DNA of 64,000 nt, from positions 372,001 through 436,000 of the forward strand of contig CAMKEG010000001.1 of the NCBI GenBank assembly GCA_946411505.1, in the 5' to 3' direction. The DNA comes from an uncultured Treponema sp. (GTDB taxonomy: Bacteria > Spirochaetota > Spirochaetia > Treponematales > Treponemataceae). Under the pieces are notes generated by a model. The model saw nothing but the letters and a program-made list of their open reading frames with translations. It did no database searches and had not been told where the DNA came from. Below, piece by piece: positions 55,738 to 60,922 of this stretch (positions within the stretch are counted from its first letter, which is position 1; every line of letters starts with the position of its first letter). A program made the translations under genes and the position numbers.

Positions 55738-57098
55738 GGCCGCCCCTTTACGTCCACATTCCCTACTGCCTCCAAAAATGCGGCTACTGCGATTTTTTTT
55801 CCGCGTCCGCGCCTTGCGTTCCGCCGGAATACGTCAGGGCCGTCGCCCGGCAGCTTGAACATTTGGCTCGCGCGTTTTGCGTGGAGGGATGGAAGAGCGT
55901 CTACATCGGAGGCGGAAGCCCCAGCCTTTTGGGCGCGGAGGACTTGGAATTTTTATGCGCTTCCATAAAGGCCGCCGCCCCCTTGGCCGCAAATTGCGAA
56001 TGGACAATCGAGATGAATCCAGAGACAGTTTCGCGCCCGCTTTTGGAAAAGGCGGCCTCATGCGGAATAAACAGGCTAAGCGTCGGAATCCAATGCAAGA
56101 ACGACAAAGTGTTGCGCGCGATTGGACGCAGGGCGAGCGAGCGCAACATCGAGAAAGCGGCGGAGCTGATAAAAAACTTTTGGCCGCATGAATGGTCGGC
56201 GGACATGATAGCGGGCCTTCCCTTCCAGACAAAAAAGGACATCGAACGCGACATAGATTTTATCGAGCGGAACGGAGCCAAGCACGTCTCGCTCTACTCG
56301 CTCACGCTGGAAGATGGAACGCCGCTAAAAGGCGCGATTGACGCGGGAAAGATTCCATACGACGAAGAGGCCGCGGAGGAACTGTGGCTTTACGGCCGAG
56401 ACCTTTTGGAGGGCAAAGGCTTTGCCCAATACGAGGTCAGCAACTTTGCCCGCCCTGGCTTTGAAAGCCTTCACAACGGGGCCTACTGGGCGCAAGAAAG
56501 CTATCTTGGCGCCGGAGCCGGAGCGGCCGGAACGATTTACGGAAAGCCCACGGGCTGGCGCTACACCAACGTTTTGGACGCGGCGGAGTATATGGCGTTT
56601 TGGAACGGGGAACGGACGCAAAACCAAGAGGCGCGCGGCCAGGATTGTTCGCAAGGCCAAAACTGCGGCGGACAACCAAAAGGCTTCACTGACCTTAACG
56701 CTGGCGGCGCGAAACAAGAGGCGTCACAAGACCAAAACGTCCGCGCCGCGCTCGCCTTTCCCTGCCAGCTGGAAGCGCTTGACATGGCCACGCAAGAGTT
56801 TGAATATATCATGACCAATTTGCGTACCCGGCGCGGCGCGAGCGCCGCCGAATACCAAGAGCGTTACGGAGGCGACCTTGCCGCGCGGCTGGGCTGCAAA
56901 GAGGCGGCGCGCGTCCAAAAGGCGGGCGGCGGAGCCTGCCAGAACGGCCAAGACGCAAGCCGCCAACAAAAAGGCTTCACTGGCCAAAAGGCCGGGGCGG
57001 CCGCATGGCTAACAAAAACCGAGCGCTCAGGCGACACCTTTTACTCAATGACGCGTGAAGGCCTATTGTTTTTAAACCGATTTTTGGAGGAATTATGA
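55734..57098 (+). CDS. hemW: Radical SAM haem chaperone HemW-like protein
   Basis: Related to HemN but lacking its longer N-terminus. Seen: the radical SAM cluster motif CLQKCGYCDF (CX3CX2C, from about residue 12), YIGGGSPSLL, EMNPETV, RLSVGIQ and SLYSLTLEDGTPL. HemW delivers haem rather than oxidising coproporphyrinogen. At 454 residues it is longer than the usual 370-400 because of two Gln/Gly/Ala-rich inserts (DNA about 56611-56755 and 56915-57005). Both inserts contain QKGFT/PKGFT phrases and look like repeat expansions. The start is GTG, overlapping the lepB stop. Confidence 0.88.
   Translation: MRPPLYVHIPYCLQKCGYCDFFSASAPCVPPEYVRAVARQLEHLARAFCVEGWKSVYIGGGSPSLLGAEDLEFLCASIKAAAPLAANCEWTIEMNPETVSRPLLEKAASCGINRLSVGIQCKNDKVLRAIGRRASERNIEKAAELIKNFWPHEWSADMIAGLPFQTKKDIERDIDFIERNGAKHVSLYSLTLEDGTPLKGAIDAGKIPYDEEAAEELWLYGRDLLEGKGFAQYEVSNFARPGFESLHNGAYWAQESYLGAGAGAAGTIYGKPTGWRYTNVLDAAEYMAFWNGERTQNQEARGQDCSQGQNCGGQPKGFTDLNAGGAKQEASQDQNVRAALAFPCQLEALDMATQEFEYIMTNLRTRRGASAAEYQERYGGDLAARLGCKEAARVQKAGGGACQNGQDASRQQKGFTGQKAGAAAWLTKTERSGDTFYSMTREGLLFLNRFLEEL
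56643..56665. repeat. Dispersed short repeat inside hemW
   Basis: GATTGTTCGCAAGGCCAAAA resembles the plus-strand truB repeat GATCGTTTGCAAGACCACAA (about 16 of 20). In hemW it is read in the sense direction, in truB in the antisense direction, and both keep the reading frame. Confidence 0.5.
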
Positions 57099-57718
57099 AA
57101 CTATTCATCTTTGACATGGGCGGCGTCGTAACCACAAACGCGTCGGAAGTCCGCGGCCGCCCCGCAGCCGCCCTTGGCGTGACGCAGGAAGAAATGGACC
57201 GCGCGACAGGCGGCCTCTTTGACCAGCTTACAGTCGGAAAAATCACGACAAAAGAATTTTGGGCGTCTGTCGGCGAGCGCCTGGGAAAGAAAATCGACAC
57301 GGATTATTTTCACTTGTTCTTCCACCCTGTCTTGAACGAGGAGACAAAAAAAATAATTTTGGGCTTGCGAAAAAAAGGCTTTCGCGTCGTTTGCGGAACA
57401 AACACAATCGAGAGCCACTACTTAAACCACATGACGCGCGGTGACTACGCATTCTTTGACCAAACATACGCGTCGCAGCTTATGGGCGCAAAAAAGCCCG
57501 ACCCGCTTTTTTGGAAGCTGATTTTGGACGCAGAAAAATGCGAACCAAACGACGCCTTCTTTACCGACGACCTAGAGGCCAACGTCCAAGCCGCCGCCGC
57601 GCTGGGCATCCACGCAGTTCAATTTACCGACGCAAAAAAATTGCGCGCAGATGTACGGGAGTTTTTGAGGGAATATAAAAAAAAACATCTATTGACAATA
57701 TTGGGAATTGATATATAA
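57095..57718 (+). CDS. HAD-superfamily hydrolase
   Basis: A phosphatase-like fold. It starts MKLFIFDMGGVVTTNASEVR (motif I, first Asp), has GTNTIESHYL (motif II region), AKKPDPLFWKLIL (motif III Lys) and AFFTDDLEANVQAAAALGI (motif IV Asp pair). Length 207 fits a small acyl-phosphate or sugar-phosphate phosphatase; the substrate is unknown. Its last 12 or so codons run through the promoter of the toxin-antitoxin pair, so its C-terminus was probably remodelled. Bases 57590-57670 are repeated at 58631-58711 (72 of 81 identical). There the paralogous copy ends earlier, at FLRK. Confidence 0.85.
   Translation: MKLFIFDMGGVVTTNASEVRGRPAAALGVTQEEMDRATGGLFDQLTVGKITTKEFWASVGERLGKKIDTDYFHLFFHPVLNEETKKIILGLRKKGFRVVCGTNTIESHYLNHMTRGDYAFFDQTYASQLMGAKKPDPLFWKLILDAEKCEPNDAFFTDDLEANVQAAAALGIHAVQFTDAKKLRADVREFLREYKKKHLLTILGIDI
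57590..57670 (+). repeat. Left copy of the 81-bp direct repeat (HAD 3' end)
   Basis: Identical at 72 of 81 positions to 58631-58711, offset 1041 bp. It lies within the intact HAD gene. The pair flanks the toxin-antitoxin genes and the lectin-fold remnant, as attachment-site or duplication repeats would. Confidence 0.85.
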
Positions 57719-57757: not shown

Positions 57758-58015
57758 ATGCCGGCAACCGTTATAAAATCTTACGACGCGAAACTCGACA
57801 TAAAAAAAAGAATCACATTGCGGAACGTTCGCTACGAATATTATCATGTGGAAGAGTTTGGCGACGGAAGAATCGTTCTTGAGCCGCGCGAACTTACAAA
57901 GCCCTTCCAAGTTTCGGCCAACACGCTAAAAGTTATGGACTCAAGCATAAAAAACCTCAAAAAAGGCCGCGCTTCAACGCCCATTGACCTTTCAGCCTAT
58001 GAGGACATTGAATAG
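57758..58015 (+). CDS. Antitoxin-like protein (AbrB-like fold suspected)
   Basis: 85 residues: KLDIKKRITLRNVRYEYYHV followed by FGDGRIVLEPRELTKPFQVS resembles the swapped-hairpin (AbrB/MazE) DNA-binding pattern. A helical tail (ANTLKVMDSSIKNLKKGR) could bind the toxin. A strong AAAGGAGG ribosome binding site precedes the ATG. Its stop overlaps the next start. It pairs with the downstream gene as a type II module under one promoter with a palindromic operator. Confidence 0.7.
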   Translation: MPATVIKSYDAKLDIKKRITLRNVRYEYYHVEEFGDGRIVLEPRELTKPFQVSANTLKVMDSSIKNLKKGRASTPIDLSAYEDIE

Positions 58016-58392
58016 TGTTCAAGATTAGAATGGGCGTTCCAGAAATGAAAGAATTTTGGGACGAGTTGGAAAAGAAAATCAAAGACAACACCGCAAAAAA
58101 GAACGAGAAAATCTTGTTCAAAAAATTGGTGGCTTGCCTAAAAAAAATCGCTACAGACCCAAGATATCCAGCGCTTTGCAGTCACGAAATCGAAGCTTTG
58201 ACAAAACGCTACGGCCAAAAAGTCTGGGAATCCTATTTTGAAAACAACAAGCCCGCCGCCGGCAGGCTCTTTTGGGTTTACGGCCCCAACAAATCCGACA
58301 TAACAATCATCGGCCTTGAGCCCCACCCCAACGACAAAAAAGACGCGTATCAAAAAATCACGCTTTCGGCAAAAAGCGGGAGAGAGGAATAA
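58015..58392 (+). CDS. Toxin-like protein (RelE/ParE-type suspected)
   Basis: 125 residues, basic and helical at the N-terminus, with a beta-rich C-terminal half: ALCSHEIEALTKRYGQKVW, AAGRLFWVYGPNKSDITIIG and LEPHPNDKKDAYQKITLS. The layout (helices, then strands ending in GLEPHPND) recalls the RelE/ParE toxin fold and small plasmid-type addiction toxins. The pairing with the antitoxin gene, with overlapping ends, is the main evidence. The target (ribosome, gyrase or other) cannot be told. Confidence 0.65.
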   Translation: MFKIRMGVPEMKEFWDELEKKIKDNTAKKNEKILFKKLVACLKKIATDPRYPALCSHEIEALTKRYGQKVWESYFENNKPAAGRLFWVYGPNKSDITIIGLEPHPNDKKDAYQKITLSAKSGREE

Positions 58393-58431: not shown

Positions 58432-58473
58432 ATCTTAGGTCAATCAAGCAGCGTTCGCTAGAACGCGGCGAAA

Positions 58474-58519
58474 CCGCTCGCAATAACGCTTACGGTCTTG
58501 CAAGCAACAATACGAGCGG
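58474..58519 (-). other. Nested hairpin at the remnant stop codon
   Basis: CCGCTCG (58474-58480) pairs with CGAGCGG (58513-58519). Inside, the minus strand has GCTTGC-aagacc-GTAAGC. The structure abuts the stop codon of the lectin-fold remnant, the position of the stem-loop that assists retrohoming in diversity-generating retroelements. Related CGAGCGGTTTCGC sequence also occurs in repeat copy C. Confidence 0.55.
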
Positions 58520-58643
58520 CTAGTTGCTTGGCGCGTTGCGAACCACGCGGAAGCCAAGGTCGCCGCGGCGGTCGCTCGGCGAGATGCAGTTCCGGAAAGC
58601 AACCGAACAGAAGTTAGCGATATAGTTCCAGCCGCCGCCGCGC
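58519..58643 (-). pseudogene. C-terminal remnant of an FGE-sulfatase/C-type-lectin-fold gene (putative DGR variable region)
   Basis: Read on the minus strand, about 41 codons up to a TAG at 58519-58521 encode RGGGWNYIANFCSVAFRNCI, then SPSDRRGDLGFRVVRNAPSN. This is the characteristic end of formylglycine-generating-enzyme-like lectin-fold proteins (RGGSWN...GFRVVR). The positions where treponemal diversity-generating retroelement targets carry Asn blocks hold mixed residues, all encoded by NNY codons. The 5' part of the gene is absent: at 58632-58643 the sequence changes into a HAD fragment through the shared tract GCCGCCGCCGCG. No start, promoter or reverse transcriptase is present. Confidence 0.75.
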
Positions 58644-58717
58644 TGGGCATCCACGCAGTTCAGTTCATAGACGCAAAAAAATTGCAGGCGGATGTAAGGG
58701 CGTTTTTGAGGAAATAG
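58631..58717 (+). pseudogene. C-terminal fragment of a HAD hydrolase paralogue
   Basis: Encodes AAALGIHAVQFIDAKKLQAD followed by VRAFLRK and a stop, in frame, matching the end of the HAD protein at 57095 but diverged (9 of 81 bases, several non-synonymous). No upstream HAD sequence is present. It shows where the HAD gene may originally have ended. Confidence 0.8.
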
Positions 58718-59683: not shown

Positions 59684-60922
59684 ATGCCTCAAACCTTCTA
59701 CCAAAGCGACACAGTTTTTACGGTAACTCAGCTTACAAACCTAATCAAGGACATGGTGGAAGGCTCGTTCCCCGAAATTGTTCTTGAGGGCGAAGTTTCA
59801 AACTACAGGCCCAGCTCAAGCGGCCACGTTTATTTTGTCATAAAGGACGCGGGAGCGCAAATCGCGGCTGTCATGTGGAAGGGAACGGCGGCGCGCTTGT
59901 CTTTCGCTCCCCGCGACGGAAACCTTGTTCGCGTAAAAGGAAAGCTCACCGTCTACCCCCAGCGCGGAAACTATCAAATCGTAATAAGCTCAATGGAATT
60001 GGCCGGAAGCGGAAACATCCTTTTGATGCTTGAGGAACGGAAGAAAAAACTCAACGCCGAAGGCCTCTTTGACGAAGCGCGAAAAAAGCCCCTTCCCGCC
60101 TTTCCTGACACAATCGGAGTTGTCACAAGCCCCACAGGCGCGGCCTTGCGCGACATCCTTCAAATCACCCGCAGGCGAAGCAAGTACGTCAACGTCATTT
60201 TGTTCCCGGCCATCGTGCAGGGCGACACTGCCGCCGCGAGCATAGCGCGGCAAATACAAACCGCCAACGACTTCAACATGTGCGACGTTTTGATTGTAGG
60301 CCGCGGCGGCGGATCCTTGGAAGACCTGCTTCCTTTTAGCGAAGAGATTGTCGTCCGCGCGGTGGCCGGCTCAAAGATTCCTGTAATAAGCGCGGTGGGC
60401 CACGAGATTGACTGGGCCATTTGCGACTTTGCCGCAGACAGGCGCGCTCCAACGCCCAGCGCCGCGGCCGAGCTTGCAGTTCCTGTATTGGACGACGTTC
60501 TGTATTATTTTGAGCAAAAGGAAGCGGAGTTTGAGACCGAAATAAAAAACCGTCTGCAAAAATTGCGCCTTATGGTTCAGGAATTTTCGCCGGAGAATTT
60601 GGAGCTTAAATTCCGTTCCATCGAGCAGCCCTTGCTGCAGCGCTTTGACTACGCCAAGGACGACTTGACAAGCAGCATGGAAGACAGAATCAAGGACGCG
60701 CGCCAAAAGCTTGAAAAGCAAATTTTGGTTTTGGAAAACGCCAACCCTTCGGCGCTCTTGCAGCGCGGATATTCGATGGTTCGCGACGCGGCCACAGGAA
60801 AAATCATCCGCTCGGCAGACGAGGTCGCTCAAGGCTCAAAAATAGAAATAGTTCCCGCCAAGGGAAAAATCATAGCCACGGTGGAGGAAGCCAGCGGCGA
60901 CGCAAACGGTGGACAACCATAA
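59684..60922 (+). CDS. xseA: Exodeoxyribonuclease VII large subunit
   Basis: Degrades single-stranded DNA in both directions together with XseB. Seen: the N-terminal OB fold (EGEVSNYRPSSSGHVYFVIK; DAGAQIAAVMWKG), the catalytic core with GVVTSPTGAALRDIL, GRGGGSLEDLLPF and SAVGHEIDWAICDFAADRRA (the metal-ligand region), and a C-terminal coiled coil. Length 412 is normal. It is followed by xseB after an 80-nt spacer. Confidence 0.97.
   Translation: MPQTFYQSDTVFTVTQLTNLIKDMVEGSFPEIVLEGEVSNYRPSSSGHVYFVIKDAGAQIAAVMWKGTAARLSFAPRDGNLVRVKGKLTVYPQRGNYQIVISSMELAGSGNILLMLEERKKKLNAEGLFDEARKKPLPAFPDTIGVVTSPTGAALRDILQITRRRSKYVNVILFPAIVQGDTAAASIARQIQTANDFNMCDVLIVGRGGGSLEDLLPFSEEIVVRAVAGSKIPVISAVGHEIDWAICDFAADRRAPTPSAAAELAVPVLDDVLYYFEQKEAEFETEIKNRLQKLRLMVQEFSPENLELKFRSIEQPLLQRFDYAKDDLTSSMEDRIKDARQKLEKQILVLENANPSALLQRGYSMVRDAATGKIIRSADEVAQGSKIEIVPAKGKIIATVEEASGDANGGQP

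Follow-up and report, generated by a model that had tools for sequence, protein, structure and literature searches.

How did a tail of about 40 codons, carrying the codon pattern of a diversity-generating retroelement (DGR) target, come to lie in this Treponema genome with neither a template nor a reverse transcriptase (RT) near it? We examined the window, that is, the whole stretch of 64,000 nucleotides analysed here (C1:372001-436000), together with the whole assembly (2.82 Mb, 14 contigs). It is very probable that this tail is what remains of a TvpA/FGE-type C-type-lectin target of a DGR, namely its variable region (VR), stop codon and 3′ homing context, most likely left in situ and now probably frozen.

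The variable region and its template repeat

Three features form the tail itself.

58538..58639, minus strand: VR, homologous to the template repeat at C1:457318-457454 (-); 102 nt compared
58520..58537, minus strand: native end of the former target gene, NAPSN codons and TAG stop, 3′ of the VR
58501..58530, minus strand: candidate stem-loop just 3′ of the VR, CAAGCAAC / GTTGCTTG, from an inverted-repeat scan

The minus strand from 58643 to 58520 translates as RGGGWNYIANFCSVAFRNCISPSDRRGDLGFRVVRNAPSN followed by the TAG stop. The preliminary description, made from the letters of the window, had singled out 14 codons as the footprint of adenine mutagenesis, and these were confirmed as NNY in 14/14 and NNC in 13/14 cases. 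Given the third-base use of three neighbouring genes, and with positions picked by eye and post hoc, the chance probability is about 1.6e-4 for 14/14 NNY and about 3.5e-5 for 13/14 NNC or more. The DGR footprint was recognisable from the VR alone, before any template had been seen. The end of the coding sequence at 58520..58537 (AACGCGCC..) is of the type seen in one other target of this genome, C10a, and unlike the TR flank. The candidate stem-loop, found by a scan without shuffle control, has an 8-bp stem and a 14-nt loop and is, by analogy with the Bordetella DGR (PMC12875486), a possible homing stem-loop.

A search of the whole genome returned near copies at C1:457318-457422 (-), C1:457646-457718 (-), C10:10902-11014 (-), C10:376-488 (-) and C9:1151-1251 (+), and a single RT, matched at C1:456625-457173 (+).

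C1:457318-457454, minus strand: template repeat (TR), reading SSGSNRVNRGGSWNNDANNCSVANRNNNSPNNRNNNLGFRVVR; 26.7 kb from the window VR
C1:456421-457311: DGR RT, IGNLTSQ and YMDD motifs; RVT_1 74 bits

A matching TR and a DGR-type RT with an HRDC gene thus lie 26.7 kb away, and nearly all differences between VR and TR fall on template adenines. The near copy beside an RT gene that the preliminary description proposed to look for does exist. Its expectation of AAC at all 14 positions held as AAY for 13; the TR carries AAT exactly at the sole NNT codon of the window (TAT), and the exception is a GAC, which reads AAC in the TR of a relative (G019). Adenines were changed at 17/28 positions and other bases at 3/74 (Fisher p = 1.7e-9), in agreement with the proposed adenine mutagenesis; the opposite outcome, no template or differences away from template adenines, did not occur. 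Codon bias as the source of the NNY pattern is rejected by the same TR comparison.

Similar results were obtained for the rest of the family. Five VRs are present in the genome, namely the window VR and four more, three of them in FGE/TvpA-type genes and one in an orphan tail. Changes at adenines and at other bases amounted to 17/32 versus 3/105 and 24/32 versus 7/105 in two of these, to 22/32 versus 0/105 in C10b and to 21/32 versus 4/98 in the orphan tail (C9:1151-1251). The divergence is adenine-specific in all five VRs, with p from 1.7e-9 to 4.2e-18 and below 1e-9 in each of the other four; the VR beside the TR of the relative G099 behaves likewise (18/34 versus 0/93). Since C10b shows no difference outside adenines, the DGR was active until recently. 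The three non-adenine differences of the window VR each occur in a related TR (AGC and AAC in G019, GCT in G099) and two are common to the C10a VR, which suggests, on a post hoc reading, that they reflect an older version of the template. The orphan tail on C9 (L027, + strand) reads SSGSSRVLCGGCWSDDALICSVALRFYNSPRLRDNFLGFRVVRTAN-stop, with no target body upstream.

The DGR cassette and its probable damage

The RT carries the motifs (I/V/L)GxxxSQ and YxDD, its start is overlapped by the HRDC accessory gene, the TR lies close by, and the VRs are found at five places. The target gene adjoining the TR encodes an FGE-domain protein that, among solved structures, comes closest to the T. denticola variable protein 2y3c (E = 1.9e-54), in support of the TvpA-type reading given in the preliminary description. 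Its statement that TR and RT are missing is true within the window, but both are present elsewhere in the genome: the VR is an orphan with respect to its own gene body, not to a TR and an RT. The reading that the genome has lost them is rejected, both being present on C1.

The TR and the adjoining target lie downstream of the RT and, being on the other strand, are convergent to it. Among 18 RT loci in 17 genomes of the genus, this inverted layout was found in three, those of the present genome (G000), G099 (Treponema sp. RGIG7863, from water-buffalo reticulum) and G019, whose RTs group in a single clade (support 100/100); the other 15 have the TR upstream of the RT and co-oriented with it. The cassette occupies about 2.8 kb between ruvA and ruvC (L025:5923-8750, or C1:455922-458749), two genes that adjoin each other across a short gap in seven relatives (G157, G064, G176, G045, G192, G099 and G035). 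Judged from this gene order, with ruvA, ruvC and also xseA named by inspection of their translations, the cassette has been inserted at this place.

G099 has two copies of the 9-bp repeat AGCGGAGCG, one close to the RT 3′ end and the other 239 bp beyond it, where the TR has its 3′ edge. One copy is left in our genome, where the RT 3′ end is fused to the TR (L025:7300-7500, or C1:457299-457499). About 240 bp are deleted, comprising the RT C-terminal block, which aligns in all 17 relatives compared, and the TR 3′ spacer. The RT gains some 60 residues from antisense TR, while the TR has lost its whole 3′ flank and bears the antisense RT 3′ end in its place, so that the spacer RNA expected 3′ of the TR in a DGR is missing. 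A copy of the G099 spacer was not found elsewhere in the genome; this spacer diverges fast between relatives. On RNA folding, the replacement flank gave a z-score similar to those of true spacers, without discrimination, and the spacer argument therefore rests on sequence only.

The spacer of the Bordetella DGR (BPP-1) serves to recruit the RT complex and to prime cDNA synthesis (PMC12875486). With its TR spacer replaced, the element here looks like a damaged DGR rather than an intact one, and removal of both the RT C-terminal block and the spacer makes it probably inactive now. Compared with that of G099, the RT has a dN/dS of about 0.15-0.16 (dN and dS of 0.15/1.04 in one half and 0.16/1.02 in the other); such low values indicate that it was long under constraint and that the damage is probably recent.

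The locus and the loss of the gene body

The surroundings of the tail are composed as follows.

57095..57718, plus strand: HAD-hydrolase gene, one border of the locus; Pfam HAD hits, 3′ end duplicated (repeat D1)
58445..58537, minus strand: 3′ flank in common with the intact target of G192, same locus
58640..58716, plus strand: 3′-end fragment of the HAD-hydrolase gene, fused to the VR at the position of the target body; 87% copy of 57584-57675
59684..60922, plus strand: xseA-like gene, the other border; 88% match in G192, with the intact target beside it

No target gene body is left at the window VR because the sequence upstream (58640-58716) is a copy of the HAD-hydrolase 3′ end; there is no in-frame ATG. 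What had been called a degraded lectin-fold gene is present as a tail with its stop, but without a body. The VR is a remnant and not a TvpA-type target gene, as the complete FGE/C-type-lectin domain upstream is missing. At this locus G192 has an intact FGE/TvpA-type gene (L132:6731-7879), of the same orientation and flanked by xseA and the HAD gene. Window positions 58445-58642 align with L132:7766-7959 at 76.5% identity over the target 3′ end and about 75 bp beyond the stop. The gene body is thus lost here, where the HAD fragment abuts the VR, and intact at the same site in a relative. Comparison of the locus across relatives, as the preliminary description had suggested, bears out a VR left behind in the case of G192 but not in the closest relatives by xseA (G157, G176 and G064), which have no VR in this interval. 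The VR-HAD junction falls inside GGCGGCGGCT, a 10-bp microhomology present both in the HAD gene and in C10a-type VRs.

At the 3′ end of the HAD gene (57628-57718, +), the allele is unlike that of close relatives, while the remainder is 93% identical to G157; this allele switch points to local recombination. Two small adjacent ORFs of 85 and 125 aa in a toxin-antitoxin-style layout follow at 57758-58392 (+), the 125-aa second one having no Pfam hit.

Most likely, the window VR is an in-situ remnant that lost its gene body and whose 5′ edge was fused to the HAD fragment. TR RNA would have been reverse-transcribed with errors at adenines, and the resulting cDNA would have replaced the window VR while the target gene was still intact. 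A microhomology-mediated rearrangement would then have removed the target gene body, and an independent deletion of about 240 bp would have fused the end of the RT gene with the TR, with loss of the last conserved RT block and the TR 3′ spacer. Since then the window VR has probably been frozen. A different history, in which recombination brought in the tail in truncated form from another Treponema, along with the HAD 3′ end and the adjacent small gene pair, and in which it never belonged to an intact gene in this lineage, is suggested by the missing VR in the closest relatives and the uncommon HAD 3′ allele; duplication of the HAD 3′ end around the segment also fits. We regard such an import as possible but rather unlikely, the intact G192 target having the same place and orientation and a shared 3′ flank; moreover, it would alter the history only and leave the DGR origin unaffected.

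Other arguments concern the present state of the VR. It could still be a live homing acceptor that goes on being rewritten without a gene, if the altered RT and the spacer-less TR work or if a gap in the assembly holds a second, intact DGR; with the assembly 94.7% complete and two VRs near contig ends, another DGR could be hidden. The nearly intact framework (3/74 non-adenine differences), the candidate 3′ stem-loop, from a scan without shuffle control, and the recent activity shown by C10b (0/105) agree with this. We nevertheless consider it very unlikely: the RT has lost its C-terminal block and the TR its 3′ flank, the place of the spacer that serves recruitment and priming in BPP-1 (PMC12875486), one RT only was found in the genome, and recent loss explains the low framework divergence equally well. 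That the tail is a plain FGE-domain pseudogene whose codons are biased and which never belonged to a DGR has next to no probability. FGE-domain genes are indeed common in this genome (16 hits) and several have a GFRV ending, but the comparison with a real AAC-rich template (adenine-specific differences, p = 1.7e-9) already refutes this reading, and NNY is not kept at the corresponding positions of C4:100657, an FGE gene that does not belong to the VR set.

Known systems and relatives

In T. denticola, isolates have as many as seven targets at dispersed sites, truncated ones of 58-136 aa are known, targets occur also in strains without RT or TR, and an HRDC gene overlapping the RT has been reported (PMC4891356). 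Our system resembles this DGR (PMC4891356; 2y3c) in having one TR, one RT with an overlapping HRDC gene, and several dispersed FGE/C-type-lectin targets. It differs in that the TR and the adjoining target are downstream of and opposite to the RT, that RT and TR are fused by deletion, and that the orphan VR lacks any gene body and abuts a HAD fragment. As T. denticola has published examples of remote, truncated and RT-less targets, the orphan VR belongs to a known kind: the window VR is a well-supported fossil of that kind and not something new. By layout, with the RT on one strand and TR and VR on the other, the cassette can be likened to the inverted (group 4) DGRs described in Shewanella, Vibrio and Photobacterium (PMC3521204), from which it differs in belonging to a clade of Treponema and in having HRDC as its accessory gene. 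With the Bordetella phage BPP-1 DGR (PMC12875486) it has in common the adenine-specific logic of TR-to-VR transfer and possibly the inverted repeat 3′ of the VR, here a candidate; unlike in BPP-1, an HRDC gene stands beside the RT instead of avd and the spacer 3′ of the TR is deleted.

The known DGR mechanism is unchanged by these findings. They present a case of how a DGR may die, in which a single small deletion apparently hit both RT and template and several scrambled targets are still there, and they add an inverted DGR clade in Treponema and a ruvA-ruvC cassette insertion confined to one lineage. Neither the inverted Treponema clade nor the specific RT-TR fusion was found in the literature searched, whose coverage was incomplete.

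By DNA search, VR-like ends were detected in ten relatives besides G099. Nine of these have no RVT_1 match; G192 and G018 among them are 99% complete, most others being incomplete MAGs. The tenth, G058, has an RVT_1 match, but one that was not matched by the RT query at 1e-30. Targets and VR tails that persist in RT-less genomes of these Treponema might form a standing acceptor pool for RT-TR cassettes coming and going as small insertions (here at ruvA/ruvC), with the window VR as one landing site, rewritable by the next cassette; we consider this idea speculative and unlikely.

Separately, at C2:340680-341509 (+; L095) a very long ORF of 2416 aa has an FGE domain at its C-terminus, and its last 26 nt are almost the same as the 3′ end of the DGR targets. 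Most of the codons that would be variable are NNY, and the ORF is possibly an old or chimeric DGR target.
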